This document shows, piece after piece, positions 21,224 to 59,217 of a stretch of 64,000 nt of DNA (positions are counted from its first letter, which is position 1; the number at the start of each line of letters is the position of its first letter). A program made the translations under genes and the position numbers. The notes beneath the pieces were generated by a model. The model searched no databases, was not told the DNA's origin, and was given only the letters and a program-made list of their open reading frames with translations. Origin of the DNA: Sedimentisphaera salicampi (lineage in GTDB: Bacteria; Planctomycetota; Phycisphaerae; Sedimentisphaerales; Sedimentisphaeraceae); NCBI RefSeq assembly GCF_002117005.1, contig NZ_CP021023.1:558001-622000 (forward strand), given 5' to 3'.

Positions 21224-22594
21224 TTACACGGTTACTTTAGCCAGCTCGCGTCTGTTGAATACAAGTGCGCCGGCAGCCAAAAGCCCGCCGGACTTAAGAA
21301 TTATCGTTATGCCTGTTTTCTCCAAAAGGAACAGAGAGCCTATCATCCGTGCAGAGAGTATCTTGCCGGATGGATTGCTCTGCCCGTCGAAACTGGGCAG
21401 AAGGTGAAGCAGGGGCTTAACGGTAAACATATAGAAAAGCCCTACTCCTTGAGTAAGCGAATCTATCGCCCCAACTATAAATCCGTTTACCATTCCGGTA
21501 AAATATACCACAAGAGATACGAATATCGCTACAGGAAACGAAAGCCATGTTGTAAGGAAGATTCCCATGGCTGCGAGGAAGAAAAGCCGGATTAAAATCA
21601 GAACATTGGCTTTGAAGTAGTTCATTCCAAATGAGCCGGATTTATAGAGCAGCTCTATTTCCCTCGGTATTACTGTTGTTTTATTGAAATATAAATTCTG
21701 GAATTCAACCGTAAGCTGCCCGTCTTCCGGCACAACCGATGCAGGAATTTTGATCTCGTGGAATGTTTTAACTGCATCTTTCCTCACATAGCTGTCATAA
21801 ATCGGAGTCTGCACCTTTTTAGCCTGTTCCAGCTGTCGTTTATCACCAATCAGCCACCTGCCCGCTATCATATTATCCGGCGGCGGCGTAGAGGCTTCGT
21901 ACTTAAATCTCAGATAAATAGAACCGTTTTGTTTGTCCTGCGGATTTAAGCCTGTGAAAGTCCAGTCTTTCATTTCTCCGGCCGCAACAGAAACCGCCTG
22001 ATACTTCTTCTGATTAACATACTCATTTATGTATTCCCGCATGGTTTTATCCTGCGGGACCTGCCCCTCGCTGCGTAAGCGTGAGTATTCTTTTCTGGCC
22101 TCTTCGCGGAACTTCGTTTCATCCATTTTTGGCGTAACACCGGTTCTTGCATTGAAGAATTCATCCTCTACCTGCTCAAGTTCCTGCGCGTCAGCTTCAG
22201 TATATTTAGGCAGGCTCACTGTAAGGAAATATGATATGCTCCCGAACACTAATAAAAATACCAGATTCACAATCATTACCCCGCCAAATTTGCCGAGGAG
22301 AATTTCATATCTCTGAACGGGCTTTGTAGCGAGGCTGAATATCTGCTTATTCCTGATATCGCTTGAAAGGGCGTAGCAGGAGAGGGTGATTGTAAGCATA
22401 CAAAGAAGAAGGCTCACAAGCGAAATGCCGTAGCTCGAGAAGGTTTGAAGCTTACCGAGAAGCGTCCCGTCTCCGACCGCCTGTACAGCCATAAACGGGA
22501 TAAGTGCGAGCAGCAGTAGAATAACAATTACCGCCACCTTCATCCTGATAAGCTGCGAGAAGGTGTTAAGAGCAATAATGCGAATATTACGCAT
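21224..22594 (-). CDS. ABC-2 type transporter permease with large extracytoplasmic domain
   Basis: This 456-residue permease has a first membrane helix at about residues 17-37, a cluster of helices to about 120, a soluble loop of roughly 200 residues, and further helices from about 330. The cytoplasmic element F-S-L-A-T-K-P-V-Q-R-Y-E-I-L-L-G-K-F-G-G is typical of ABC-2 permeases. The loop includes a beta-rich stretch with K-T-F-H-E-I-K-I-P-A-S-V-V-P-E-D-G-Q-L. Three ATG codons are consecutive; I chose the third because GGGGG stands six bases before it. It overlaps the end of the ATPase gene by 8 bp, so the two subunits form one transporter. The substrate is unknown. Confidence 0.85.
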   Translation of the reverse strand: MRNIRIIALNTFSQLIRMKVAVIVILLLLALIPFMAVQAVGDGTLLGKLQTFSSYGISLVSLLLCMLTITLSCYALSSDIRNKQIFSLATKPVQRYEILLGKFGGVMIVNLVFLLVFGSISYFLTVSLPKYTEADAQELEQVEDEFFNARTGVTPKMDETKFREEARKEYSRLRSEGQVPQDKTMREYINEYVNQKKYQAVSVAAGEMKDWTFTGLNPQDKQNGSIYLRFKYEASTPPPDNMIAGRWLIGDKRQLEQAKKVQTPIYDSYVRKDAVKTFHEIKIPASVVPEDGQLTVEFQNLYFNKTTVIPREIELLYKSGSFGMNYFKANVLILIRLFFLAAMGIFLTTWLSFPVAIFVSLVVYFTGMVNGFIVGAIDSLTQGVGLFYMFTVKPLLHLLPSFDGQSNPSGKILSARMIGSLFLLEKTGITIILKSGGLLAAGALVFNRRELAKVTV

Positions 22595-23780
22595 CATCAT
22601 CCCCCATCAAATCCTTCAAAACATCATCTTTTACCGGTTTCTGCTTTTTCTTTTCTTCCTTGGCGGGAGTTAGCTCATCATCTGCCTGTTTTGTCTTTTC
22701 TTCTTTAGATTCATCTTCCTTAACAAGTTCGCTCAACACCTGCTTATTCTCCTCAGGTTCGGCCTGCCTTGTTTCTGGTTCAGGGCGTGTTTTTTCGGTT
22801 TCTTCCTGTTTTGCAACATCTGCTGAGACAAGCTCATCAAGCACTTTATCAGTTTTATCTTCCTGCTGTTTTTCCCCAAGGAAGCTGCCGATTTTACCAG
22901 TGCTGTACGCTCCGCCTGTTGCCACTTTTTCATTCTGCGCCTTCTCTACAACCTCTATAAAGAGATCCTCAAGGCGGAACTGAGGAGAGCTTACCTCGCA
23001 AGACCCGCCGGCCTGCTGTATCACACTGCAAGCCTGCTCCAAAGCTTCTTCCTGAATATTCTCGGCTATAATCTGTTTCTTTCCAGTCTGCCTGAGAAGG
23101 TCTTTAACAATCCCCTCGCACTGCACTCTTCCGCCGTACAAAACACATATCCTATCGCAAACGTCCTCAACATCAGCAAGCAGATGGCTGCACATAAGCA
23201 CTGTTTTCCCGCGTCCGGCCAGCTTTTTGATCAAATCTTTTATCTGTCTTGTACCGATTGGATCCAGTCCGGAAGTTGGTTCATCAAGGATCAGAACGTC
23301 AGGATCATTTACTAAAGCCTGAGCGAGACCGATCCTTCTCTGCATTCCCTTTGAAAATGTACCTATAGGCCTGTTGGCAACTGCCGAAAGCCCTACCATA
23401 TCCAGCAGGGATTCAATACGCATATTAAGGACCTTTGAAGGTATGCCGAAAAGATTGCCATAGAATTTCAAAGTTTCTTTTGCCGAAAGATACTTGTACA
23501 GATAAGATTCTTCAGGCAGAAATCCTATACGCTCTGCAATGCGTTTCTCCCTGCTGTCTCCGCCGAGTATAAAGGATTTGCCCTTCGTCGGATGAAGCAG
23601 AGACAAGAGAACCTTTATTGTTGTGCTCTTACCGGAACCGTTGGGACCGAGCAGACCGTAAACCTCATTTCGTTTTATCTTGAGGTTCAGATCATCCACT
23701 GCCAGAACCTTGGTTCTGCCCCACCAGTCTTTGAAAGCCTTGGTAAGAGATATTGTTTCTATTGCATATTGCTCACTCAA
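22587..23780 (-). CDS. ABC transporter ATP-binding protein with repeat-bearing acidic/basic tail
   Basis: The ATPase domain (about residues 1-240) shows Walker A G-L-L-G-P-N-G-S-G-K-S-T-T, the signature F-S-K-G-M-Q-R-R-I, Walker B V-L-I-L-D-E-P-T-S-G-L-D-P and the H-loop C-S-H. It drives the adjoining ABC-2 permease. The unusual part is a charged, probably disordered tail of about 95 residues. It carries three similar short motifs, V-L-D-E-L-V (near 313), V-L-S-E-L-V (near 348) and V-L-K-D-L-M (near 387), spaced 35-39 residues apart by Glu/Lys-rich linkers. The start is TTG at 23780 with GAGGAG seven bases upstream. It follows the metal ATPase gene by 35 bp. Confidence 0.93.
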   Translation of the reverse strand: MSEQYAIETISLTKAFKDWWGRTKVLAVDDLNLKIKRNEVYGLLGPNGSGKSTTIKVLLSLLHPTKGKSFILGGDSREKRIAERIGFLPEESYLYKYLSAKETLKFYGNLFGIPSKVLNMRIESLLDMVGLSAVANRPIGTFSKGMQRRIGLAQALVNDPDVLILDEPTSGLDPIGTRQIKDLIKKLAGRGKTVLMCSHLLADVEDVCDRICVLYGGRVQCEGIVKDLLRQTGKKQIIAENIQEEALEQACSVIQQAGGSCEVSSPQFRLEDLFIEVVEKAQNEKVATGGAYSTGKIGSFLGEKQQEDKTDKVLDELVSADVAKQEETEKTRPEPETRQAEPEENKQVLSELVKEDESKEEKTKQADDELTPAKEEKKKQKPVKDDVLKDLMGDDDA

Positions 23781-23815: not shown

Positions 23816-25810
23816 TTATTCATTATTATTTTCTTCCCCGACGCTGATTTTATCACGGGCCACAACAGCTTCGTGTGTGTCTAGATATTCGCCGTAGCGA
23901 ACTAAGCGGGCGCTGTTGAAGATTACGAAAAGTGAACCGACAAAATGAAGCGGAGCTGCAAGAGCCGCTGAAACAATGCCTGAGAGTGTAAGGGCGATGC
24001 CTATAACAATAAAGAGACTCCCGAAAAGCAGGTTCTGCGTGATAACTGTCCTTGTTTTTCTGGAAAGGTTCACAAGGAAAGGAAGCCTTTCAAGGTCGTT
24101 GTTCATCAGTGCGATGGAGGCTGAGTTGATCGCCACATCACTTCCTGCTGCTCCCATTGCGATTCCCAGATCGCCTTCAGCAAGAGCTGGGGCATCATTG
24201 ATTCCATCTCCGATTACCGCAACCACATGGCCTTCATCTCTGATTTTACGAACGATTGAGAGCTTGTCCTGAGGCAGGCAGCTGGCTCTGAAATCTGTAC
24301 AACCCAGCTCAGATGCCACTCTGTTCGCCACTTCTTTACGGTCTCCAGTGAGCATAGTAACTCGCTTGAGGCCTGAATCGAGCAGTTTTTTTACAGCTTC
24401 TCTGGCCTCGGGCCTTGTCTTATCCTGCATACCTATCCAGCCGAGGCAAACCCCATCTTTAGCTATGTAAAGTGTGCTGAAGCCCTCTTCTTCGTGAAGG
24501 GCAGGGTCGGATACAACCGAAAGATCAATGCTGCTGTCTTTGAGGAAGCTGTCTCTGCCAATAAGAACCTTGCTGCCCTCTACGACAGCCTGAACCCCTT
24601 TACCCGGAACTTCTTCAAAGCTCTCGCTTTCCTGCAGAGAAACGTTAGCCTCTTTAGCAAGCCCCATCAAGGCCCTTGCTGCCGGGTGCTTACTCATCTT
24701 CTCGGCAGAGGCTGCGGTTCGAAGCAGATCTGCCGGTTCCACCCCTTCAGCAGGCTCAAGCTTTGTTACATACAGCCGGCCTGTGGTCAGCGTACCTGTT
24801 TTATCGAACACCATTGAAGTGAGCTTACCGGCAATCTCAAGGTCTGCAACGTTTTTCACGAAAATACCGAGCCTTGCTGCAGCTGATATTGCTGCTACCA
24901 TAGCTGTAGGTGTTGCAAGAATAAGGGCGCACGGACAGGAGACAACAAGAACCGCTATAGACCTGTCAAGGTGTTTGGTGAAAAACCAAGCTATAGCTGC
25001 TATCATCAGGATCGTGGGTATGTACCACTTTATATACTTATCCATAATCCTCATAATAGGGATTTTGGTTTTCTCTGCCTGCATTATCAGCTCTTGAACC
25101 TTGCCAAGAGTGGTCTGAGAGCCTACCTTAGTAACCTTAACATCAATCCCGCCAGTAAGATTTGTTGTACCTGCGAAGACCTGCATTCCCGGAACTTTAT
25201 CAACAGGCAGAGACTCGCCAGTGATAGTGGCTTCGTTTATGCTTGTAAGGCCTGATATAACCTCGCCGTCTGCGGCTACATTATCGCCCGGACGGATACG
25301 TATTACATCATCCTTGCTGAGCTCGGATACCTTAACTTCCTTCTCTTCGCCGTTTGATTCTACCTTAACCGCCCTTTTCGGTGTAAGCTTTATCAGGGAT
25401 TCGATTGAGGCTCTTGCCCCGAGGGCAGTTCTTGTTTCCATAAGCTCGCTGAGCAGAAGGAAGAAAGATACAATACCAGCCTCTTTATACTGACCTGTTG
25501 CAAATGCAGCGATAATCGCAAGCGCAACAAGCTCATCCATATGCATTTGGCCTTTGATTATATTCTTCACGGAATGAATTATCACCGGAAGACCGAGCAG
25601 GATAGCGCCGAACATTGCGCTTAGTTCAACAACAGGACTGTCTGCCCCGTATAAGAAAGGCAGGCCGCTGAGATAGCTGTTCAGCAGGAGCACTCCGCCG
25701 GCCAAGGTAGCAATCAGTGCAAGGCTGACTCTGCGAACCTTTCCCGCTTCCTTGAGCCCTTCCTGATTATCAAACTCTAATTGTTCTATATGAAGGTGGT
25801 CATGTGCCAT
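23816..25810 (-). CDS. P1B-type heavy-metal translocating ATPase
   Basis: This 664-residue cation pump has the transport motif S-C-P-C-A-L-I-L-A-T-P-T-A, the phosphorylation site D-K-T-G-T-L-T, T-G-E-S-L-P in the actuator domain, the nucleotide-domain K-H-P-A motif, and G-D-G-I-N-D-A-P-A-L. The N-terminus is a short histidine-containing segment (M-A-H-D-H-L-H-I) rather than a full metal-binding domain. The last helix reads A-P-L-H-F-V-G-S-L-F-V-I-F-N-S-A-R-L, where a Zn or Co pump would often have H-E-G, so the metal is unclear. It is embedded between the HflK-like gene (20-bp gap) and the ABC ATPase, unlike the usual metal-resistance contexts. Confidence 0.92.
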   Translation of the reverse strand: MAHDHLHIEQLEFDNQEGLKEAGKVRRVSLALIATLAGGVLLLNSYLSGLPFLYGADSPVVELSAMFGAILLGLPVIIHSVKNIIKGQMHMDELVALAIIAAFATGQYKEAGIVSFFLLLSELMETRTALGARASIESLIKLTPKRAVKVESNGEEKEVKVSELSKDDVIRIRPGDNVAADGEVISGLTSINEATITGESLPVDKVPGMQVFAGTTNLTGGIDVKVTKVGSQTTLGKVQELIMQAEKTKIPIMRIMDKYIKWYIPTILMIAAIAWFFTKHLDRSIAVLVVSCPCALILATPTAMVAAISAAARLGIFVKNVADLEIAGKLTSMVFDKTGTLTTGRLYVTKLEPAEGVEPADLLRTAASAEKMSKHPAARALMGLAKEANVSLQESESFEEVPGKGVQAVVEGSKVLIGRDSFLKDSSIDLSVVSDPALHEEEGFSTLYIAKDGVCLGWIGMQDKTRPEAREAVKKLLDSGLKRVTMLTGDRKEVANRVASELGCTDFRASCLPQDKLSIVRKIRDEGHVVAVIGDGINDAPALAEGDLGIAMGAAGSDVAINSASIALMNNDLERLPFLVNLSRKTRTVITQNLLFGSLFIVIGIALTLSGIVSAALAAPLHFVGSLFVIFNSARLVRYGEYLDTHEAVVARDKISVGEENNNE

Positions 25811-25830: not shown

Positions 25831-27108
25831 TTACTGATTGCCATTCTGGTTTTCATCACTGCCGCTTTTCTTATCTTTGATTGAGGGGTTTCTGTTTATC
25901 AGCACCCTGAATTCTCTCTCTTTGCCCTCTTTTGCGGGCTGAACGATAATCTTTTCGTCAACAGTGTCCAATATTTGTTCCATATTATCCTGATAGATCC
26001 TCTCTATCACGAGCTCCGGCCTCTTCCTGTATTCTGGAAGGAGCTGCCTTAGATAATTTGCGTTTGCCTTTGCGGTTTCAATCACCTTAGTCTTGTAAGA
26101 CCGTGCCTCGCTGAGGTTCTTGCTGGCCTGACCTGTGAGGTCTGAATACGCCATACGAATTTCTGCCTCTGTGGAGCTTTCATCAAGAAGCACCTCAAGC
26201 GATTCTTCCGCTCTCGGGCCGCCTGCTTCGTTGAGGGTCTTCTCGTAATAGGTCCAAGCTTCAGTTTCAATGCTGCTTCGGTTCTGTCCGGCCTTTATCG
26301 ATGCAAGGAAAGCCTGATCAACCTGACGTGGCCAAGTTATTTTCAGGATCTGCATATCTCGAACTCTAATGCCCGTTGAAAGCTCTCTGAGCCTTTCCTG
26401 GACTAGTGCAGTAACTTCCCGTGTGATATTGGATTTCGATGTTGTAACGGCCTGATCAATGCTGTATTTTGCCAGCGTACGCACTATTGCATCATCAGTT
26501 ACTGTTGTAAGCAACGGCTCAACGCTCTCGGAGATAACGTCTCTATAGAGCTCTCCTGGCTTTACAGGGCGTACTTTTACATTTCTGAAAAATGCGTAAG
26601 GGTCGTCTTCGATTGTCCAGTTCAGCTGCCATTTGCAGTGGACGATGTTATAGTCGGTTGCAAGCTGGTCTTCATAGCCCTGCACCTCTTCATTTCGCGT
26701 GAGGCAGTAACCGTCTCTTATCGGATTGAGGGTTCGTCCGGGCCTGCTGCCCTGTTCGGGGTCAAAATACCAGAAATCATCGATCTCGAGTTTTTGCGTA
26801 GCTGTTACCGGAACCTTGACAATCTCATCAATCGGATAGGGAAGAGCCCAGTGAAGTCCGGGTTCTTTGAGAGCAGTTCCTGACGCGTCACGAACCACCT
26901 TGCCGAAACGCAGAACTATTGCCTTTTCATTTTTTTCTACTGTATAAACTCCTGAGGCAAAAAACAGGATTATAAGAACAATCATTATGAGCTTTAGAAC
27001 AGCAAAGCTTATCTTAAGCGCATCAGCGAGCGCCTTGCTGCCTGAATCCATACCAGCTGTAATGTCCTGCTTATTTTCAGGGTTTTTATTTTCTATCTCA
27101 TTCATCAA
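25831..27108 (-). CDS. SPFH/band-7 protein, HflK-like
   Basis: The 425-residue protein has a cytoplasmic N-terminus, one membrane helix (about 34-55, L-K-L-I-M-I-V-L-I-I-L-F-F-A-S-G), and then a band-7 domain. That domain opens V-E-K-N-E-K-A-I-V-L-R-F-G-K and has the family phrase G-L-H-W-A-L-P-Y-P-I-D-E. A long helical region follows and the tail is charged. HflK and HflC normally form a membrane complex around the FtsH protease. It lies 15 bp after the HflC-like gene and 20 bp before the P-type ATPase gene. No ftsH is in the window, so the partner protease is not shown. Confidence 0.88.
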   Translation of the reverse strand: MMNEIENKNPENKQDITAGMDSGSKALADALKISFAVLKLIMIVLIILFFASGVYTVEKNEKAIVLRFGKVVRDASGTALKEPGLHWALPYPIDEIVKVPVTATQKLEIDDFWYFDPEQGSRPGRTLNPIRDGYCLTRNEEVQGYEDQLATDYNIVHCKWQLNWTIEDDPYAFFRNVKVRPVKPGELYRDVISESVEPLLTTVTDDAIVRTLAKYSIDQAVTTSKSNITREVTALVQERLRELSTGIRVRDMQILKITWPRQVDQAFLASIKAGQNRSSIETEAWTYYEKTLNEAGGPRAEESLEVLLDESSTEAEIRMAYSDLTGQASKNLSEARSYKTKVIETAKANANYLRQLLPEYRKRPELVIERIYQDNMEQILDTVDEKIIVQPAKEGKEREFRVLINRNPSIKDKKSGSDENQNGNQ

Positions 27109-27123
27109 GACAGCTCCGAGATT

Positions 27124-28065
27124 TTACTTTTCTTTGTTTTCACTATCTTGCTGAGACGCCTTGGAGTCTTTTGGTTTGGAAGACTCTAGCTCGGGCACCT
27201 CGCGAAGCAGTTTCATTGGATCAGTTTCTGCCCCGAGAACAACAGTTGACCTATTCTCAAGAATCTTGGCAAGAGCTTCCAGATCCCTTAAATACATGGC
27301 AAGTTCCGGGTCGTCCTGAAGCATCTTATAATACTTTGCTGCTCCGGCATCACCCTCACCTTTGATAGCAATCACGCGGGACTCAACAGCGGCCAGAAGC
27401 TGCTGCTTTTTCTTGTCGGCATCAGTTCTGATTCTCGTAGCAGTTGAGCGGCCTTCGCCAAGAATATCTTCCTTCTTGCGCTGCCTGTCCGCACGCATTC
27501 TCTCAAAGACTGCTTGTGTTACCTCTTCATTGAGTTCAAGCTTCTTAATGCCCACTGAATCCACAGTAATGCCGTATTCGTCTTCGGTGGATTCCTTGAG
27601 TGCCTGGAGAAGTTCATTTTCAATCTGATCGAATTTGATCTTGTCCGGATCAGTGTTCACAAACTCGCTGAAATAATGCTTTCCTACCACTGCATTGGCA
27701 TGATTTCGAAGCTGGCTCAAAAGAAACTTCTGCACCTCAACGTCAGTTGAAACTCTCTCAAAGAAGTGCTGGGGCTGAGAGATCTTCCAGATCATATAAG
27801 GAGTAATGATAACCGGCTCGCCGCCTTTAGTTGTTGTTTCCTCCTGCTGGCCTTCAAAGACCTGCAGGCGGGAATCGAATTTATGGACAACATCAAACGG
27901 CGTGGGGAGTTTGAAGTAGAGCCCGGGTTCGGTTTTTTCCGCTATAGGTTTTCCGAACCTCGTTATCAATGCAGACTCTGTTTCCCTGACCTGATAGCTG
28001 CACAGCTTGAATCCAAGCAGCACTACGATTGCTGTTACAAGAATCAGCTTTGGTAATCTTCTCAT
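27124..28065 (-). CDS. SPFH/band-7 protein, HflC-like
   Basis: This 313-residue protein has one N-terminal membrane helix (residues 6-24) and a band-7 domain beginning V-R-E-T-E-S-A-L-I-T-R-F-G-K-P and G-L-Y-F-K-L-P-T-P-F-D. The stalk motif M-R-A-D-R-Q-R-K-K-E-D-I-L-G-E-G is characteristic of HflC, and the tail is Lys/Ser/Glu-rich. It would assemble with the HflK-like proteins on either side into a membrane ring or cage. It is the second gene of the SPFH triad, 44 bp after the seven-helix member. Confidence 0.9.
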   Translation of the reverse strand: MRRLPKLILVTAIVVLLGFKLCSYQVRETESALITRFGKPIAEKTEPGLYFKLPTPFDVVHKFDSRLQVFEGQQEETTTKGGEPVIITPYMIWKISQPQHFFERVSTDVEVQKFLLSQLRNHANAVVGKHYFSEFVNTDPDKIKFDQIENELLQALKESTEDEYGITVDSVGIKKLELNEEVTQAVFERMRADRQRKKEDILGEGRSTATRIRTDADKKKQQLLAAVESRVIAIKGEGDAGAAKYYKMLQDDPELAMYLRDLEALAKILENRSTVVLGAETDPMKLLREVPELESSKPKDSKASQQDSENKEK

Positions 28066-28109: not shown

Positions 28110-30161
28110 TTATTCCTCAGGTAGCTCTAAGTCGTATATATCGGGGTTGAGCTTCTGCTTGAGATCAACAATCATAACCTCGCTGTCGCCTTCCCCGGAA
28201 ACAACGATGTACTTCCTGACATCTTCAAGAGACCTTTCCAGAGTTAGCAGTCTTTCATTCTGCAGGTAAATCTTTGGCGCTGCCCTGTAAGCCTTAAGCT
28301 GGCTCTTGAACCTTTCGCCGGAGGCCTTTGAAAGACGCTTCTTCTTGAAAGCATACTGCTCTGCATCAAAGATCTTTTCAGCAATCTGTCCCCGAGCCTC
28401 AAGGAAAGCCTTATCGAGCTCAGCAAGCCTTTCTTTACGTGCAGACTCAGACAACTCGTCCTTCTCCTGCTCATAATCAGAAAGCATTTTATAGAGACCA
28501 TTTACCTGCTCTAGTGATCCGCCCAGCTCGGTAAGTGTTTTGTTCCTCTCGGCAAGGGCTGAAAGTATTGATTCCTGCCTCTTCTGGACTGCCCCTATAA
28601 CCTCTTCATAATCTGAGGCCACATCGAGCGGGGGATGAATGCCCTGAAGGCCCACTGTTACAATCTCAACACCGAGCCCGAGCTCATCAGCTCTTGTCTG
28701 TATAATTTGTGTCAGCTCTTCGCTGGCTTCTTTTCTGCCAGCACCGAGCACGCTTTCATTATCCTGTATATCGCCGCCGAAGATATCCGTTTCGAGCTTG
28801 GCACTTGCCATATATCGTGCAATCTCTCTGTAAGACACATTTTTCAGGATAACTTCGGGATCTTTATGGTTGTATAAGAATTGGTAGAGGTCTTTCACCC
28901 TGTACTGTACCGGAACTGCGGCTACTATCAAACTTACAGGGGGCGCATCCTCATTGCTGATATTCTTGGAAGATTCGGTTGCAACAACGAGACGGAATTC
29001 GACTTCCTGGTGCTTCTGTCCCCAAAGAAGGGGCTTTTTAACAATCTCATCGGTTTCTTCATTTATATCTGGGGCATTCATAATGCCGATATTGAGCTGC
29101 TGAATTCTTTCAGTATCGTGAATATATGCCTTGTCGAAAGGCGCAGGCCATTTGAAGTGCATCCCCGGGCCTACTATCCTTCTGCCGTTGTCTGTAGAGC
29201 CGAGATGTTCGATCGCTGCCTTTTTACCCGGACCTACAACCACAAAACAGCTCATCAGATACATGCACAAAATAAGCAGGAAAAGAAGCGGAAGGATTGC
29301 CTTTTCAAGAAGCCTGTAGAACCAAGTCTGGGATACCTTAAAGCCGAACTGATAATCAATTGTGCTTGCCGCTGTATGAAGCATACTCCCCGGCTGGCTG
29401 ATAATACCAAGCAGGCGGCTGTCTAAGCCCGGCCTGTGATAGGCACCTTTGATTCTTGGACGATAGATATCCAGAACTGTGTTCAAAATAGTCTCGGCTC
29501 CAAAAAGGAGCATAATTACAGGTACAATCCAGCTTGCTGCAACTATGGGCAGATCATAATGGAAAAACCGTATTCCAAGGGCTATTGCCACAATAAGCGA
29601 GCCGGCTGAGGAAGAAATCAGATAGCTGCCTCCTGCCCTTAATGGCTGCCAGTCTTTTTCAGAAGACATCCCTGAGGCGTACTTAGCGAGAAGGAAGCTT
29701 GCAAACCATGCTACTATCATAGCCGATGCCCCTGCAAGGGGGTTCTTTCCAACTAATTCACTCGTTTCTCTGAGTCTGGATATGAGCCAGAGGCCGATTG
29801 TTATGCTGTATGCGGCTGAGAGAACGGAAAAAACGATGCCTCCCCACCGCTGAAATATTTTGAACCGCTTGCGTGCGACAGAGAACATAGCCTGTCTTTG
29901 CTGGGAATCCTGAAAGATTGTCTCATCCTGAGATTTTAGGATAGCCTCATCGCGCTTTTCACGTTCTGCAAGGCCAAAGTTGTGGTAATAGATAATTAAG
30001 TAGAGCCATATAATTGCTGCGCCGAGCAGATGCCAGGCTATAAACTGCACCGGAAGGATGCTTGTAATAATTCCGGTAAGCAGGCATCCCAAAAAGCCTA
30101 TCAAAGACAGGATCAGTCCGCCGAGAGCAACGTTCATCGCCTTTCTGGAGGAGTCTTTCAT
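28110..30161 (-). CDS. Large SPFH protein with seven predicted membrane helices (HflK-like fusion)
   Basis: The 683-residue product joins an N-terminal polytopic region (about residues 1-310, with hydrophobic segments near 10-33, 40-60, 107-130, 143-163, 181-201, 206-230 and 286-310) to a band-7 domain. The domain opens F-V-V-V-G-P-G-K-K-A-A-I-E-H-L-G and contains G-M-H-F-K-W-P-A-P-F-D-K-A-Y. A long coiled-coil stalk follows (about 525-645). Normal HflK has a single membrane helix, so the polytopic part is extra. AGGAAATAAAATG gives a good start. It is the first gene of an eight-gene minus-strand run. Function is inferred only from the SPFH domain and neighbours. Confidence 0.85.
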   Translation of the reverse strand: MKDSSRKAMNVALGGLILSLIGFLGCLLTGIITSILPVQFIAWHLLGAAIIWLYLIIYYHNFGLAEREKRDEAILKSQDETIFQDSQQRQAMFSVARKRFKIFQRWGGIVFSVLSAAYSITIGLWLISRLRETSELVGKNPLAGASAMIVAWFASFLLAKYASGMSSEKDWQPLRAGGSYLISSSAGSLIVAIALGIRFFHYDLPIVAASWIVPVIMLLFGAETILNTVLDIYRPRIKGAYHRPGLDSRLLGIISQPGSMLHTAASTIDYQFGFKVSQTWFYRLLEKAILPLLFLLILCMYLMSCFVVVGPGKKAAIEHLGSTDNGRRIVGPGMHFKWPAPFDKAYIHDTERIQQLNIGIMNAPDINEETDEIVKKPLLWGQKHQEVEFRLVVATESSKNISNEDAPPVSLIVAAVPVQYRVKDLYQFLYNHKDPEVILKNVSYREIARYMASAKLETDIFGGDIQDNESVLGAGRKEASEELTQIIQTRADELGLGVEIVTVGLQGIHPPLDVASDYEEVIGAVQKRQESILSALAERNKTLTELGGSLEQVNGLYKMLSDYEQEKDELSESARKERLAELDKAFLEARGQIAEKIFDAEQYAFKKKRLSKASGERFKSQLKAYRAAPKIYLQNERLLTLERSLEDVRKYIVVSGEGDSEVMIVDLKQKLNPDIYDLELPEE

Positions 30162-30313
30162 TTTATTTCCTGAATGTTATAATTAATTTTTATTCCTTAA
30201 ATGTTGGCTAACTGTAATTGTTAAAAACAGTTTTGCAAAGAAACCGTATTAAACGAAGCGGCAAAAATTGACTTCAGCCTTTACTAAAAAGTTAAATCGT
30301 ATAAATTAACCGC

Positions 30314-30342
30314 TTGCAAAGCTCGAAAGTTTATATTATACA
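30314..30342 (+). promoter_or_regulatory. Candidate promoter for the orphan ABC-2 permease
   Basis: TTGCAA (30314-30319) and TATACA (30337-30342) are 17 bases apart, about 45 bp before the permease ATG. It lies in the AT-rich spacer shared with the divergent SPFH operon. Assigned by eye. Confidence 0.4.
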
Positions 30343-30386
30343 ATCAAAAAATCAACCTTGTTAAAATTTAATTTTAGGATTTATAA

Positions 30387-31352
30387 ATGTTTATAAAGCT
30401 TATCACTATCGCCAAAAACACCTTGGTAGAAACGCTCAGGCAGCCTGTATTTTCGATTATTCTTCTAATCTGCCTGATTATGCTGCTTATAAGCCCTTCC
30501 TTAACAATGTTTTCGATTGACGATGATAACAAACTCTTGCGAGAAATTTCGTATTCTACGATTTTCATCTCAGGGTTGTTCATAGCAGTATTTTCCGCAT
30601 CAGGTGCTATTACGCAGGAAGTGGAATCAAAAACTGCTGCAACAGTTTTGAGCAAGCCTGTTTCGCGTATAACTTTTGTGCTGGGTAAATTTTTTGGAAT
30701 ATCCGGAGCTGTGGCTTTGTGCCACTTCTTAAGCTCTGCAGTAATGATGATGATTATAAGGCACGGTGTACTGCAAACCGCCAGAGACGAGGTTGACTGG
30801 ACGGTAATAACCGCCCTTTCGGTAATTTTTCTGCTGGGGATTATCGTGGGCGCTCTCGCAAACTACTCTTGGGACTGGAACTTCGCCTCGACTGCAATCC
30901 TGACATCATCAATCACAGCGGCGGCAGCATTTATAACACTCAGCTTCATAGATAAGCAGTGGCAGTTTAACCCGGCTGAAAATAACTTTTCCGCATTCGA
31001 CTTATACAGCTCTGCACTGATTTTCTTAGCAATAATCGTTCTGGTGTCTCTTGCAGTGCTATTCTCCACCCGCTGCAATATGGTGCTAACACTGCTTTTA
31101 TGTATTGGCGTATTTCTTCTCGGTCTCATAAGCGACTACATATTCGGCCGATTCGCAGCAGATAATATCTTTGCAAAAATCGCTTACTCAGCAGTACCGA
31201 ACCTTCAGGTATTCTGGATCAGCGACGCCATATACCTCGACAGCACCGTACCTTTTCAATACGTACTGAAATGCGGGGCATATTCACTGAGTTATGCAGC
31301 TGGCGTTATAGCGTTGGCAGCATCCTTCTTCCAGAGAAGGGAAGTTGGGTAG
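30387..31352 (+). CDS. ABC-2 type permease without an adjacent ATPase
   Basis: The 321-residue product has six to eight hydrophobic segments and the ABC-2 permease layout. An N-terminal helix (Q-P-V-F-S-I-I-L-L-I-C-L-I-M-L-L) is followed by the element T-V-L-S-K-P-V-S-R-I-T-F-V-L-G-K-F-F-G. That element parallels T-K-P-V-Q-R-Y-E-I-L-L-G-K-F-G-G in the permease at 21224-22594, but this protein lacks the large external loop. AGGA precedes the ATG. No ATPase gene is beside it. It may use the ATPase encoded across the divergent promoter region or one elsewhere. Confidence 0.8.
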   Translation: MFIKLITIAKNTLVETLRQPVFSIILLICLIMLLISPSLTMFSIDDDNKLLREISYSTIFISGLFIAVFSASGAITQEVESKTAATVLSKPVSRITFVLGKFFGISGAVALCHFLSSAVMMMIIRHGVLQTARDEVDWTVITALSVIFLLGIIVGALANYSWDWNFASTAILTSSITAAAAFITLSFIDKQWQFNPAENNFSAFDLYSSALIFLAIIVLVSLAVLFSTRCNMVLTLLLCIGVFLLGLISDYIFGRFAADNIFAKIAYSAVPNLQVFWISDAIYLDSTVPFQYVLKCGAYSLSYAAGVIALAASFFQRREVG

Positions 31353-31495: not shown

Positions 31496-32821
31496 ATGCA
31501 AGAAAACACAGAAAAAATTTGGGACAATCTATTTTCCTCTAAATCTGCACCTACTTTAGAGGATTACAATCAAATCAACCTCTCGGTGAACAACTCTGAG
31601 CGAAACAAAATGAAATTTGTTGAGAAGGTCGATAAAATTGCAGGCAGCAGTAAAAAGAACTCCGCTTTGAAAGCAGGAATCGGATACTGCATTGCAGGCA
31701 GATATAGGGACGCTATCGAAAACCTCGAGAAGGCAGGCGATTCGGGGATCAAAAACTACTGCATTGCCAAATCTTACCTTGGAGTAGGCAGGAAATCCGA
31801 AGCTGTTGAACATTTCCAGAAAGCAGTTAACGAGATAGACAATCCCACTATTGCTGAGCTTGAGAGGATTAAAGTTCTTATAGATGGGAGAGACTACCGC
31901 GCGGGAGAAAATGCCCTCAAGAATCTGTCCAAGGTTTTAAAGGGCAAAAACGCTAAGTATCACTGCGTTTACGGAAACCTCTACGATGCTCAAGGGGAAT
32001 TTGACAAGGCCGCTAGTGAGTATGAAAAGGCTCTAAACATAGATCCGGAGCATGAGCCTACCCTTCTGAGCTTTGCATATATGCTTGACCTGCACGGAAA
32101 CCCTGTTCAGGCCATGAAGCTCTATAAGAGAATTGTTCAGAATAATCCGATAAGCGTTAATGTGCTTTTGAATATGGCAGTAATATATGAGGACAACGAA
32201 GAATACGACAACGCTGCAAACTGCATTGATCTTATACTGAAGTACTATCCAAACCACGAACAGGCAAGGATGTACAAAAAGGATATTGAGAGCTCAAGAG
32301 ATATGCTCTACGACGAGGAGCAGGAGCAGAGAAAGAGCACGAGAAGCAGGATTCTCGAAAAGCCGATCAGCGAATACGAGCTTTCAGTGAGAAGCAGAAA
32401 CTGCCTCAAGAAGATGAATATAAACACGATAGGCGATCTGCTTAGAATCAGCGAGCAGGAACTTCTTTCCTACAAGAATTTCGGAGAAACAAGCCTTACA
32501 GAAATTAGGGCAATACTCGAAAGCGAAGGCCTGAGGCTTGGGCAGTTTAATGAAGACGGAACAGAAAACACCTCCCAGAAAAGCGAATCAGAGAAGAAAA
32601 AGGCCGATAATGAGCTGCTATCCAAGCCGATCTCAGAACTTGAGCTTTCAGTTAGAGCAAGAAGAGCTATAGACAGACTCAGCCTGAAAACATTCGGTGA
32701 AGTGGTTGAAAAAACTGAAGAAGAGCTGCTCAACTGCAAGAATTTCGGTGTTACAAGCCTAACCGAGATAAAAGAGAAGCTTGCAAAATACAATCTGACA
32801 CTCAAACAATCCGAAGAATGA
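31496..32821 (+). CDS. TPR protein with two RNA polymerase alpha C-terminal domains
   Basis: Residues about 55-265 form tetratricopeptide repeats, for example F-D-K-A-A-S-E-Y-E-K-A-L-N-I-D-P-E-H. Two copies of the RNAP alpha-subunit C-terminal helix-hairpin-helix domain follow. Copy 1 reads E-L-S-V-R-S-R-N-C-L-K-K then F-G-E-T-S-L-T-E-I. Copy 2 reads E-L-S-V-R-A-R-R-A-I-D-R then F-G-V-T-S-L-T-E-I. Against the E. coli alpha domain, copy 1 keeps the DNA-contact residues equivalent to R265, N268 and C269, while copy 2 keeps only R265; both have Thr at the K298 position. In RNAP this domain binds UP elements and activators. No RNAP core domain is present. Its stop overlaps the next gene's ATG (ATGA). 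Confidence 0.9.
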   Translation: MQENTEKIWDNLFSSKSAPTLEDYNQINLSVNNSERNKMKFVEKVDKIAGSSKKNSALKAGIGYCIAGRYRDAIENLEKAGDSGIKNYCIAKSYLGVGRKSEAVEHFQKAVNEIDNPTIAELERIKVLIDGRDYRAGENALKNLSKVLKGKNAKYHCVYGNLYDAQGEFDKAASEYEKALNIDPEHEPTLLSFAYMLDLHGNPVQAMKLYKRIVQNNPISVNVLLNMAVIYEDNEEYDNAANCIDLILKYYPNHEQARMYKKDIESSRDMLYDEEQEQRKSTRSRILEKPISEYELSVRSRNCLKKMNINTIGDLLRISEQELLSYKNFGETSLTEIRAILESEGLRLGQFNEDGTENTSQKSESEKKKADNELLSKPISELELSVRARRAIDRLSLKTFGEVVEKTEEELLNCKNFGVTSLTEIKEKLAKYNLTLKQSEE

Positions 32822-47381: not shown

Positions 47382-48806
47382 ATGAGCTTAACTGAGAAAT
47401 ACGAAAAACTTAAACACAAACTGAACAGGATTGGCCAGGAGCAGCTTCTTAGGTTTTGGGAAGAACTTGAGGAAACCAAAAGAGAAAGGCTTCTGAGAGA
47501 TATTGAACAGCTTGAGTTTGAAAATATCCCCAGATGGGTTGAAAAATACGTGAAGCGGGAGCATTCTGTGGAATTGCCCAGCGAATTCGATCCTGCCCCC
47601 TATTTCAAAGCGGAGCCCCCGAAAGGTCAAGAAGAAACTTATGCGGATGCAAAAGCTGTTGGCGAGGACTTAATCCGCCAAGGTAAAGTTGGTGCGTTTG
47701 TAGTAGCCGGCGGCCAGGGCACAAGGCTCGGCTTCGGCGGGCCGAAAGGCTGCTACCCAGTGAGCCCGGTTAAAAACAAAACCCTTTTCCAGATATTTGC
47801 TGAAACAATACTCTTTGCAAACCGAAAATACGGGGCTAAGATTCCTTGGTATGTAATGACTAGCCCGCTCAACCATAACGCCACTGTTCAGGCATTTGAA
47901 GAAAACAACTACTTCGGCTTGGACAAAAATGATGTATATATGTTTGAGCAGGGAACAATGCCTAATTTCCAGTTTGACGGAAAGATTTTCCTTTCCGAAA
48001 AAGATGAAATCGCCAAGAGCCCCGACGGCCACGGCGGGAGCCTCAAAGCACTTTACGCAAGAGGTGCTGTGGCGGATATGCAGAAACGGGGAATTGAGCA
48101 TTTGAGCTATTTTCAGGTGGATAATCCGCTTATCCAAATTATGGATCCGCTCTTTATCGGGCTGCATGCCAAAGCGGATGCGGAGATGTCTTCAAAGGCT
48201 CTGATTAAGGGCTATCCCAAGGAAAAGGTAGGCAATTTCTGCCTTGTAAACGGCCGAGTTAATGTAATTGAATACAGCGACCTGCCGGATGAAGAAGCCG
48301 AGAAGAAAAATCCAGACGGAAGCCTTGTTTTCCAGCTTGGTTCTATTGCAATACACATCATTAGCAGAAGCTTTATTGAGGATATCAATTCCGAGGGCTT
48401 TGCTCTTCCGTTCCACAGAGCGGTTAAGAAGATTCCCCACGTAAATAAAGTTGGCGAGAAGGTTAAGCCCGAAGAGAAGAACGGTATCAAACTCGAAACA
48501 TTCGTATTTGATGCCCTGCCGATGGCGGGAGAATCTGTGATCCTTGAAACGCTCAGAGAGGAAGAATTCGCTCCGGTTAAGAACAAGGAAGGCGTTGACA
48601 GCCCCGCTGTTACAAGAGAGATGATGACCGAACGGGCAGCCAAATGGCTCGAAGCAGCGGGCGTTGATATTCCACGCACCCCCGAAGGCAAGGCAGACTG
48701 CATTATTGAGATGAGCCCCCTTTTTGCAGCCTGCATAAATGATATAATTGAAAAGAAGAGCGAACTGCCCGAATTCGAAGCGGGCAAAACTTACTATTTA
48801 GAGTAA
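47382..48806 (+). CDS. Eukaryote-type UDP-sugar pyrophosphorylase (UAP/UGP family)
   Basis: This enzyme makes a UDP-sugar, most likely UDP-N-acetylglucosamine, from UTP and the sugar 1-phosphate. The 474-residue protein has the UDPGP-family loop G-G-Q-G-T-R-L-G-F-G-G-P-K-G-C-Y-P-V and then T-L-F-Q-I-F-A-E, M-T-S-P-L-N-H and F-E-Q-G-T-M-P, as in eukaryotic UAP1, rather than the GlmU or GalU type common in bacteria. L-L-R-D-I-E-Q-L-E-F-E-N-I at the N-terminus also resembles the UAP1 leader. GAGG precedes the ATG. The neighbouring galE suggests a route to UDP-GalNAc or UDP-Gal. Sugar specificity is inferred. Confidence 0.88.
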   Translation: MSLTEKYEKLKHKLNRIGQEQLLRFWEELEETKRERLLRDIEQLEFENIPRWVEKYVKREHSVELPSEFDPAPYFKAEPPKGQEETYADAKAVGEDLIRQGKVGAFVVAGGQGTRLGFGGPKGCYPVSPVKNKTLFQIFAETILFANRKYGAKIPWYVMTSPLNHNATVQAFEENNYFGLDKNDVYMFEQGTMPNFQFDGKIFLSEKDEIAKSPDGHGGSLKALYARGAVADMQKRGIEHLSYFQVDNPLIQIMDPLFIGLHAKADAEMSSKALIKGYPKEKVGNFCLVNGRVNVIEYSDLPDEEAEKKNPDGSLVFQLGSIAIHIISRSFIEDINSEGFALPFHRAVKKIPHVNKVGEKVKPEEKNGIKLETFVFDALPMAGESVILETLREEEFAPVKNKEGVDSPAVTREMMTERAAKWLEAAGVDIPRTPEGKADCIIEMSPLFAACINDIIEKKSELPEFEAGKTYYLE

Positions 48807-48816
48807 GGAATTTGTT

Positions 48817-49389
48817 ATGAAGCCTGAAAGCCTAAAAACAAGATTCAGCGTTTTCCTGAAAGCTATTACCGCAGCGGTTATTGCAGCAGCCATATTTGCG
48901 GCTTCCGGCTGCTCGCAGGGATTAAGGTTTGAAGAGCCCGCGGAGATGAGCGAGGCTGCAAACAACTACAATTGTTCCAAGAAAGAAGCGATGAACAAGC
49001 TTAAGGAAGAACTTGAAGAGACGGGCTTTAAGATAGACAAATTCGACACTGAAAAGGGCTACCTGCTCACAGCACCACTTCGCGGCGGTCAGTTTTTCGA
49101 GCTTTGGCGCAGAGACAACATGACACTTCAAGCTGCAGGTTACAGCAATATCCAGAGCATTGTTCGGATAGGTGAATTTGAATTTGCAGAAGGCAGCGTA
49201 CAGGGCAATGTCCTTGTTAAACAGCTTCGGATAGATAAGGATTATGAAGGCCTTATTTCAGATATTAATAACGTTTTCACGCAAAGAAGCGGAATGCTTG
49301 CAGGCCTTGAACTGCCTAAAGAAGGTGTTGAGTGGAGCATCGTAGGCAGGGATAAGGCCCTCGAAAAACGCTTTTTGACTTGTTTTTAA
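48817..49389 (+). CDS. Putative lipoprotein between the pyrophosphorylase and galE
   Basis: The 190-residue product has a long signal segment (residues 12-33) ending in a good lipobox, A-A-S-G-C. The mature part is mostly alpha/beta: a helix A-M-N-K-L-K-E-E-L-E-E-T-G-F-K-I is followed by strands such as G-Y-L-L-T-A-P-L-R-G-G-Q-F-F-E-L-W. No family was recognised. AAGGA precedes the ATG 10 bp after the upstream stop, and galE follows after 22 bp. All three are likely one transcript ending at the terminator after galE. Confidence 0.7.
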   Translation: MKPESLKTRFSVFLKAITAAVIAAAIFAASGCSQGLRFEEPAEMSEAANNYNCSKKEAMNKLKEELEETGFKIDKFDTEKGYLLTAPLRGGQFFELWRRDNMTLQAAGYSNIQSIVRIGEFEFAEGSVQGNVLVKQLRIDKDYEGLISDINNVFTQRSGMLAGLELPKEGVEWSIVGRDKALEKRFLTCF

Positions 49390-49411
49390 CCTTTAGAGAA
49401 CGGATAGATTT

Positions 49412-50398
49412 ATGAATGTATTAGTATGCGGCGGAGCCGGCTATATAGGCAGTAATATGACAGCAATGCTCGCTGAAAACGGGCATAAGGCTTATGTTTA
49501 CGATAACCTGAGCAAGGGGCACATCGAAGCAGTAGTACCCGAAGCGGAGTTTATCTATGGAGACCTTGCAGACTATGACAAGCTTGTTCGGGTTATTCGT
49601 GATAAAAAAATTGATGCCGTTATGCACTTTGCAGCCTTTATTGAGGTTGGCGAGAGCGTTAAAGACCCGCTCGGCTACTACAACAACAACTTCTGCAACA
49701 CACACAACCTGCTCAGGGCAATGGACTTTATGGGTGTTAATAAGTTCGTGTTCAGCTCAACAGCAGCAACATACGGGATGCCCGATGAGGTACCAATTGT
49801 AGAAACGCTCCCTAAAGAGCCGATAAATCCTTACGGCGAGAGCAAGTGGGCAGTTGAAAGGATGTGCCACTTCCAAAGCCAAACCGGGCGGCTGAATTAC
49901 GCTGCACTTAGATATTTCAATGCCTGCGGCGCAGGACGAAACAGCCAGTTAGGCGAAGACCACAAACCCGAATCTCATCTTATTCCGCTTATCATTCAGG
50001 CAGCACTCGGGCAAAGAGAAGACATCAAGATTTTCGGCACAGACTACAACACTAAAGACGGAACTTGTGTTCGTGATTATATTCACATTGAAGATCTTTG
50101 CTCTGCGCACCTTTTGGCTCTGGAAAAACTCTCAACAGAAAGCGAGATTGTTTTCAATCTTGGAAACGGAAACGGCTATACAGTTCGAGAGGTTATCGAA
50201 ACTGTGAAGAAAGTTTCAGGGAAGGATTTCAAGGTAACTGAAACCGACCGCCGAGCGGGAGACCCTGCCGTGCTCACAGCCGATTCTGCGAAGGCACAAA
50301 CCCAGCTTGGCTGGAAGCCCAAATGGACAAATCTTGAGGATATCGTAGAAACCGCTTGGAAATTCCACTCTGCCCGCCCAAACGGCTACAGCGGCTAA
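49412..50398 (+). CDS. galE: UDP-glucose 4-epimerase
   Basis: This short-chain dehydrogenase-type enzyme interconverts UDP-Glc and UDP-Gal, and in some members the N-acetyl forms. In 328 residues it shows the NAD loop G-G-A-G-Y-I-G-S-N, D-N-L-S-K-G-H, the catalytic S-S-T-A-A-T-Y-G and Y-G-E-S-K (Tyr/Lys pair), and R-Y-F-N-A-C-G-A. Its association with a UAP-type pyrophosphorylase suggests it may act on UDP-GlcNAc, but the residue that sets this preference was not assessed. A strong terminator follows. Confidence 0.95.
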   Translation: MNVLVCGGAGYIGSNMTAMLAENGHKAYVYDNLSKGHIEAVVPEAEFIYGDLADYDKLVRVIRDKKIDAVMHFAAFIEVGESVKDPLGYYNNNFCNTHNLLRAMDFMGVNKFVFSSTAATYGMPDEVPIVETLPKEPINPYGESKWAVERMCHFQSQTGRLNYAALRYFNACGAGRNSQLGEDHKPESHLIPLIIQAALGQREDIKIFGTDYNTKDGTCVRDYIHIEDLCSAHLLALEKLSTESEIVFNLGNGNGYTVREVIETVKKVSGKDFKVTETDRRAGDPAVLTADSAKAQTQLGWKPKWTNLEDIVETAWKFHSARPNGYSG

Positions 50399-58326: not shown

Positions 58327-59217
58327 ATGAAAGGCAAAAATGCAATTGCAGAAATATACCGCGTTACCATCTGGGGAACTGCGGGGAACCTCCTGCTTGC
58401 AGGGTGCAAAACCGCCGCAGGAATAATCGGAGGCTCCGCCGCAGTGCTCACAGACGGGCTGCATTCGCTCAGCGACCTTGCAACTGACGGGGCAGTTTTC
58501 GCAGGTGCAAAGCTCAGCGAAAAGGCTCCGGATAAGATGCACCCATACGGTCACCGCTGGTGGGAAACGCTCAGCACGCTTGCGATCTCGCTTGTATTGT
58601 TTGCAGCAGGCTTAGCGGCTGTGGTTAAGGCTTTCTCTTCCGGCAAAGTGAGCAGTTTCGAAAGCCCGGGGCTGGTTTATGCAGTAACTCTGTTTTCGAT
58701 AGGCGTTAAAGAGGCCCTTTTCAGAATAACTGAGCGGGCGGGCAGGAAAACCTCAAGCTCCGCCCTCCACGCAAATGCATGGCACCACCGAAGCGATGCT
58801 ATGAGCTCTATAGCTGTGCTTGGGGGACTGATTATGACAAATATGGGCATAGCTTATGCAGACAGCATAGCTGCAGGTCTTGTGGGGCTTATGATTATAA
58901 TCGCCTCCTTGAAGCTTATAGGCGGGGTTTTCAGGGAATTTTCAAACACAGCAGCAGGACGAAAAACCCTCGAAACCGTAAAGAAAATCAGCCGAGAAGA
59001 CCCCGAGGTAGGCCAGATACACAAGCTTCGGTCTAGAAACATAGGCAGAGAAATCTTTCTTGATTTCCATATGCTCGTTGACCCTCAGATGAGCGTACGA
59101 AAAGCCCACGAAATTACAGACCGCATTGAGAAAAAGATTTCTGAGAGTCTCACTGTGCCTGTAAATATTACCATCCACATTGAGCCTGATCTGGAGGATA
59201 AGCGAAAAGATGAATAA
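58327..59217 (+). CDS. Cation diffusion facilitator family transporter
   Basis: The 296-residue protein exports divalent metals such as zinc, cobalt or iron using a cation/proton gradient. Helices begin near residue 14. The transport site is visible in helix 2 (L-T-D-G-L-H-S-L-S-D) and helix 5 (H-A-N-A-W-H-H-R-S-D-A-M-S). A cytoplasmic C-terminal domain ends with the strand V-P-V-N-I-T-I-H-I-E-P-D. Metal specificity is unknown. Its stop overlaps the start of the next gene by 8 bp. Confidence 0.93.
   Translation: MKGKNAIAEIYRVTIWGTAGNLLLAGCKTAAGIIGGSAAVLTDGLHSLSDLATDGAVFAGAKLSEKAPDKMHPYGHRWWETLSTLAISLVLFAAGLAAVVKAFSSGKVSSFESPGLVYAVTLFSIGVKEALFRITERAGRKTSSSALHANAWHHRSDAMSSIAVLGGLIMTNMGIAYADSIAAGLVGLMIIIASLKLIGGVFREFSNTAAGRKTLETVKKISREDPEVGQIHKLRSRNIGREIFLDFHMLVDPQMSVRKAHEITDRIEKKISESLTVPVNITIHIEPDLEDKRKDE

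Follow-up and report, generated by a model that had tools for sequence, protein, structure and literature searches.

The window analysed here, a stretch of 64,000 nucleotides from Sedimentisphaera salicampi (contig NZ_CP021023.1, positions 558,001 to 622,000 of the forward strand), carries a closely spaced series of genes on its reverse strand. The series begins with gene A (28110..30161; 683 aa), in which a membrane domain resembling the CDF transporters is joined to an HflK-type SPFH subunit, and continues with gene B (27124..28065; 313 aa), an HflC-like SPFH protein, and gene C (25831..27108; 425 aa), a second HflK-like SPFH protein. These are followed by gene P (23816..25810; 664 aa), a P1B heavy-metal ATPase, gene T (22587..23780; 397 aa), the ATPase of an ABC transporter with a long charged tail, and gene M (21224..22600; 458 aa), an ABC-2 type permease whose gene overlaps T by 14 bases. 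The spacings A-B, B-C, C-P and P-T are 44, 15, 20 and 35 bases. On the forward strand, a second ABC-2 type permease, gene N (30387..31352), is divergent from the series and adjoins A in 78 of 80 loci. The same strand also carries a 441-aa open reading frame (31496-32821) with TPR-like repeats followed by two helix-hairpin segments, identified by eye, which we take to resemble the C-terminal domain of the RNA polymerase alpha subunit.

Gene A is an uninterrupted single frame from an ATG start to a TAA stop. On the reverse strand, residues 1-237 (29451..30161) form the six-helix CDF-like domain, residues 238-279 (29325..29450) a linker whose invariant columns include the segment DYQFGFxVSxTWF directly ahead of helix 7, residues 280-304 (29250..29324) helix 7 itself, the counterpart of the lone HflK anchor, and residues 305-646 (28224..29249) the SPFH/Band 7 domain with C-terminal helices. 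The Band_7 match, at residues 308-535, scores 46.3 bits against a cut-off of 23.6, which places the protein in the SPFH/Band 7 superfamily. Hydropathy averaged over 30 homologues gives six hydrophobic segments ahead of the one entering the Band_7 domain, and AlphaFold2 (AF2) models place helices 1-6 at 5-33, 36-78, 95-132, 141-165, 174-200 and 204-233, followed by a linker with short helices, the helix at 280-304 and the SPFH domain (full-length model: pLDDT 86.7, pTM 0.54). The initial annotation of this locus had described an SPFH protein with six extra helices before the helix that leads into the band-7 domain, and the hydropathy, the models and the Band_7 match all bear this out. Its estimate of about 310 residues ahead of that helix fits the SPFH domain, which about 305 residues precede, and not helix 7, which only about 279 precede. 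Charge bias, together with the outward position of the SPFH domain in HflK, suggests a seven-helix topology with the N-terminus inside, which would put the linker at 238-279 on the cytoplasmic side.

A fusion of this kind could be an artefact of sequencing or assembly, and in two distant loci (L169 and L171) gene A is indeed read as two overlapping frames with the N-terminal piece separate, through either a sequencing error or a genuine split. The protein is matched in 38 of 40 related genomes, however, and all 30 related loci that were read out carry both parts in a single frame of 662-695 aa, as do plasmids of another phylum. Because the single frame is conserved, we consider an artefact already refuted and the idea almost certainly wrong, and the concern raised at the outset, that the N-terminal region might be a separate gene joined by a sequencing error, can be set aside. 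A profile of the N-terminal part built from 22 sequences (A2) has matches in 53 of 294 genomes sampled from the phylum, and a wider one from 87 sequences (A4) in 230 of 298 genomes sampled from the class. Some genomes, G149 and G220 among them, show the N-terminal match in two pieces, possibly owing to sequencing errors. A scan of GTDB contigs with the gene A alignment returned 544 relatives, the best 80 of which were retained; the same scan with the single gene A protein as query gave no match.

The N-terminal part has no Pfam or NCBIfam domain over cut-off, and the HMM search proposed for it in the initial annotation names no family; structure models and the comparison of profile with profile connect it to the CDF transporters. 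The curated cut-off of the CDF family PF01545 is not reached by gene A, and 4 of the 87 members match it weakly (best E 0.025). Of the 87, 38 members showed weak Pfam matches to Caveolin, 10 to Proton_antipo_N and 4 to Cation_efflux, none of which was used alone, and the best match by sequence in the PDB was V-ATPase c' at E 0.2, which was rejected. An AF2 model of residues 1-312, built from 87 sequences (mean pLDDT 86.7, pTM 0.78), superposes with VIA-align on YiiP at Z 20.3 and an rmsd of 2.8 A over 201 residues (model residues 2-238). The first 35 of the 50 VIA-align rows are CDF proteins, and the row after these has Z 8.1; the full-length model likewise matches CDF proteins at Z 20.0 over residues 2-237. 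Foldseek returned nothing under E 0.001 for the 1-312 model against the PDB, and its top 20 rows, the best at E 0.014, consist entirely of CDF transporters for zinc or manganese. In hhalign, A4 matches a profile of CDFs, drawn from 23 loci of relatives together with E. coli FieF and ZitB, at 69.3% (E 4.3e-5) over 188 collinear columns. A4 gave 0.1-0.8% against four unrelated membrane profiles, 0.3% against reversed profiles and at most 7.3% against 20 block-shuffled CDF profiles. Against FieF and ZitB alone the value is 2.9%, and against planctomycete CDFs alone 32.1%. That the six extra helices adopt the six-helix membrane fold of YiiP and ZnT is thus well supported by structure and hhalign together, and common descent with the CDF transporters is likely. 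The window also holds an ordinary CDF transporter gene (about 58378-58920, forward strand; PF01545, E 5.7e-39), the only one found in the genome.

The fold is shared with CDF transporters such as YiiP/FieF and ZnT, as is the collinear profile match. CDF proteins carry metal ligands in helix 2 and helix 5; we take the YiiP residues to be D45, D49, H153 and D157. The matching positions of gene A, with those of helix 5 placed by eye on the basis of the hhalign block, hold D, E, H or C in 11, 2, 1 and 2 of 87 members, respectively, so the gene A family lacks a conserved helix 2/helix 5 metal site. Where CDF proteins have a cytoplasmic C-terminal domain, gene A has its SPFH part instead. Since the four positions are not conserved as ligands, the domain is probably, on the strength of this alignment, a repurposed CDF fold that does not transport. 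An alternative is that it still moves a cation through another site, for instance around Glu223 in helix 6, with the SPFH ring gathering many copies. The CDF fold is compatible with this, and all 87 members retain Glu223, the sole acidic residue so conserved inside a helix of the N-terminal part. The canonical ligand positions, however, are not retained as D, E, H or C and a ferredoxin-like domain is missing after helix 6, and we give an active transporter little credence. Returning to a non-transporting domain, conservation extends to residues in its loops (E68, F83, W171, R175, D247, S248, R249 and the DYQFGFxVSxTWF segment), and we infer that these loops lie on the cytoplasmic side. The outer loops of the six-helix part measure merely 2-8 residues in the segment table, and any binding face of the N-terminal part would therefore have to be intramembrane or cytoplasmic.

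The initial annotation had also proposed a three-component SPFH set formed with HflC-like and HflK-like neighbours. The identity of the neighbours holds, with scores slightly under the curated cut-offs (gene B, TIGR01932: 125.4 bits, cut-off 134.4; gene C, TIGR01933: 137.9 bits, cut-off 159.4). Gene A itself scores 81.8 bits and stays below the same TIGR01933 equivalog cut-off of 159.4; residues 288-655 of its full-length model superpose on HflK/C chains at Z 15.8. A tree of 61 SPFH rows, made by a quick method with SH-aLRT support only, separates A (98) from HflK (97) and from C (92), with A next to the HflK group and not branching inside it, and puts B with HflC (97). A is a single group across Planctomycetota and Proteobacteria, and so is C; the five plasmid rows make one group inside each of A, B and C. 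These groups, the placement of B with HflC and the constant gene order lend support to a three-component set; because the groups are common to both phyla and the same gene order has been retained, A, B and C have evolved as a unit. The further suggestion that the gene A subunit could bind membrane clients directly is plausible.

The kinship with HflK and HflC raises another reading, that A, B and C are a second regulator of FtsH of the HflK/C type, in which the CDF-like domain would present particular membrane proteins to FtsH and the pump would be a substrate or a passenger. The branching of A and C with HflK and of B with HflC agrees with it, as do the single FtsH in the genome and the published enclosure of FtsH by HflK/C (PMC12048511). 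Yet the same genome holds, at 991-992 kb, an HflK/HflC pair that passes both curated cut-offs, and at the examined loci neither annotation nor search finds an FtsH gene, while a P1B ATPase is present there. We regard a second FtsH regulator as unlikely, though not negligibly so.

What the initial annotation missed, besides the CDF fold, is the P1B ATPase and, in Planctomycetota, the ABC transporter. In every one of the 80 loci, which are the best of the 544 relatives and biased to close kin, the genes present are arranged as A-B-C-P-T-M along a single strand, and all seven genes are found in 60. A occurs in 80, N in 78 (divergent in 78 of 78), B in 76, C in 72, P in 70, T in 64 and M in 62, and in all 20 loci that lack genes the contig breaks off on the side where these would be. 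Gene C is split in one locus (L092). Among 29 more distant loci (L148-L176), drawn from further genomes in the order, class and phylum and some of them cut by contig ends, B is present in 28, C in 27, N in 25, T and M in 23 each and P in 21; gene A stands alone in L176. The ATPase does not adjoin A in L160, L161, L164, L166 and L172. The genomes of these five (G311, G303, G133, G285 and G276) encode, away from A, an ATPase to which the module ATPase profile gives 677-878 bits, against at most 498 bits for their other matches, an assignment of orthology made by score only.

The genome has a single TIGR01525 match, gene P, which scores 561.1 bits against a cut-off of 346.25 and bears the CPx, DKTGT and TGE motifs of a P1B ATPase. 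DKTGT and TGE are found in 65 of 65 module ATPases and CPC in most. The two CPC cysteines are present in 64 and 59 of the 65 and a histidine of the last helix in 63, and the start of the protein is often rich in histidine. The best solved match of gene P is 7qbz, labelled as cadmium-translocating, which is presumably of the P1B-4 class. In a tree of 26 ATPases with a small outside sample, from which CadA is absent, the 20 module ATPases cluster as a single clade (100/99) that excludes ZntA, CopA and four further P1B ATPases. Among the plasmid matches listed, staphylococcal CadA scores 379-381 bits, above the module plasmid ATPases at 357-360.

The same association occurs in a second phylum. 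A tblastn search of plasmids found polytopic proteins annotated as 'protease modulator HflK', and the series A-B-C-P can be read from the annotation of plasmids of Burkholderia ubonensis, Paraburkholderia sprentiae, Rhizobium tumorigenes (two plasmids) and Klebsiella aerogenes; in Rhizobium sp. T1473, three SPFH genes and a P-type ATPase are likewise found from open reading frames. The hosts of this four-gene core thus belong to the alpha-, beta- and gamma-proteobacteria. Among the matches listed, at least the ten plasmid ATPases best matching Klebsiella P (100 to 52.7% identity) each have a polytopic HflK match no more than about 5 kb away. The N-terminal parts of six Proteobacterial sequences match the window family over helices 3-7 at 96.7% (E 3.7e-10, 201 columns); compared with the CDF profile by themselves they give 0.4% and are not recognisable as CDF. 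Because the plasmid rows group by SPFH subunit and the ATPases form one clade, A, B, C and P share a history: the subunits and the pump have descended together. The Rhizobium protein had no match in phages, the Klebsiella protein none in viral contigs, and the Klebsiella gene no blastn match in E. coli genomes. On a Klebsiella michiganensis plasmid (NZ_CP106839.1, about 48478-49635), a match to the module ATPase in three pieces, with 54.8% identity over 58% of the query, is possibly a decayed copy of the module.

The plasmids also bear on whether, in Planctomycetota, the block chiefly serves membrane maintenance or ABC export, with the pump an old neighbour that has no joint function. In keeping with such a unit, the ABC genes remain with A-B-C in the five distant loci where the ATPase does not adjoin. 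Against it, those five genomes retain a high-scoring ATPase of the module type elsewhere, and the four-gene core stands on Proteobacterial plasmids without ABC genes, none of which directly follows it on those examined. A unit without the pump therefore strikes us as improbable.

The intergenic region between N and A (30162-30386 in the window) was considered for signs of metal-dependent control. The sequence CTTTACA, directed towards N, occurs in 55 of 78 orthologous regions, mostly with a TATAAC- or TAAAAT-like box about 17 bases on, and together these are a predicted conserved sigma-70-like promoter of the divergent permease N, of which the window has a diverged form only. A Zur/Fur operator was a candidate here, as a Zur-like pattern with at most three mismatches is found in 18 of the 78 regions, where simple shuffles would lead one to expect 3.9. 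We claim no operator, because the outstanding k-mers are those of the N promoter and its TATAAC also feeds the Zur-like score.

Taken together, we put at about an even chance the hypothesis that the fusion of a degenerate CDF with HflK acts with B and C as an SPFH assembly dedicated to metal transport, with the P1B ATPase as its constant partner. In such an arrangement, A, B and C would form a three-subunit assembly at the inner membrane with a periplasmic dome, like HflK/C around FtsH, and the shell would resemble that of HflK/C but include HflK-like subunits of two kinds. In the membrane at the ring would sit the CDF-like part, with its conserved face to the cytoplasm, where P would be the likeliest partner, and the domain and its conserved linker could dock the pump there. 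The dome, in turn, might retain metal ions or shield the pump from FtsH, and in Planctomycetota an ABC transporter would have been added to the SPFH/P1B set. A bolder version, which we offer as speculation and rate as doubtful, is that in both phyla the dome cages the ATPase, the dead CDF holds the pump, and a private periplasmic chamber feeds it metal for uptake. If so, an ATPase whose family normally exports could serve uptake, as an SPFH-caged metal importer of Planctomycetota and plasmid-bearing Proteobacteria. This would offer a route to asking how a P1B ATPase might import. The genes of ring subunits accompany one clade of metal pumps across two phyla, a linkage that names a testable candidate, besides FtsH, for what SPFH rings enclose. 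The fusion has been hidden by its automatic annotation as 'protease modulator HflK'. New here are the CDF fold and the metal pump as a constant partner, while HflK/C-like SPFH assemblies and hmtA-like clusters were known; in the literature searched, neither an SPFH-CDF fusion nor a complex of SPFH proteins with a P1B ATPase was found.

A close structural reference is the HflK/HflC-FtsH system of E. coli. HflK/C is described as an assembly in the periplasm in which 24 subunits alternate and an opening can admit membrane proteins (PMC12048511). Gene A shares with this system the helix, the SPFH domain and the C-terminal helices, and an HflC-like gene lies adjacent. However, E. coli has one HflK, whereas here there are two HflK-like subunits, one of them with six added helices; the gene neighbour is a metal ATPase and not FtsH, and A falls below the TIGR01933 cut-off. 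Another E. coli locus, QmcA-YbbJ beside FetA-FetB, also has an SPFH gene adjoining a putative iron ABC exporter, as judged by annotation. Unlike gene A, QmcA is a stomatin-type SPFH protein with an NfeD partner, is divergent from the ABC genes and has no fusion.

The four-gene core likely corresponds, by published order and annotation, to the hmtA cluster of Pseudomonas aeruginosa (PA2439-PA2435), in which a member of the HflK family, HflC and a member of the HflC family precede a P-type ATPase in the same order as in the window (PMC4542158). In that cluster one further gene, PA2436, which is absent from the window block, separates the SPFH genes from the ATPase; the available part of the account names no ABC genes and describes no fusion or CDF fold. 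PaFlo5-6-7, an operon of strain PA14 with three SPFH genes whose deletion had only mild phenotypes (PMC13086221), is probably the PA14 name for the SPFH genes of this cluster; 'ATPase' does not occur at the start of a word in the main text available for that study. By the same analogy, HmtA is likely the studied example of the module ATPase clade. It is described as a zinc/copper importer (PMC8456098), while a review calls for confirmation of import (PMC10393844). Evidence on zinc control is mixed: Zur with zinc shifted the PA2439 promoter in a study that saw no repression of hmtA mRNA by zinc (PMC8531726), whereas, against that shift, the review has Zur binding every zinc-uptake promoter but that of hmtA (PMC10393844). 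Under zinc depletion the PA2434-PA2439 proteins rose, significantly for PA2438 by one method (PMC11761036). In a znuA mutant PA2434-PA2439 were up, with PA2437, PA2438 and PA2439, of the HflC and HflK families, at 14.4, 10.6 and 9.0 fold and hmtA at 5.6 fold (PMC4542158). An SPFH assembly built around the metal pump would account for the presence, in the P. aeruginosa hmtA cluster, of three 'HflC/HflK' genes that go up on zinc starvation.
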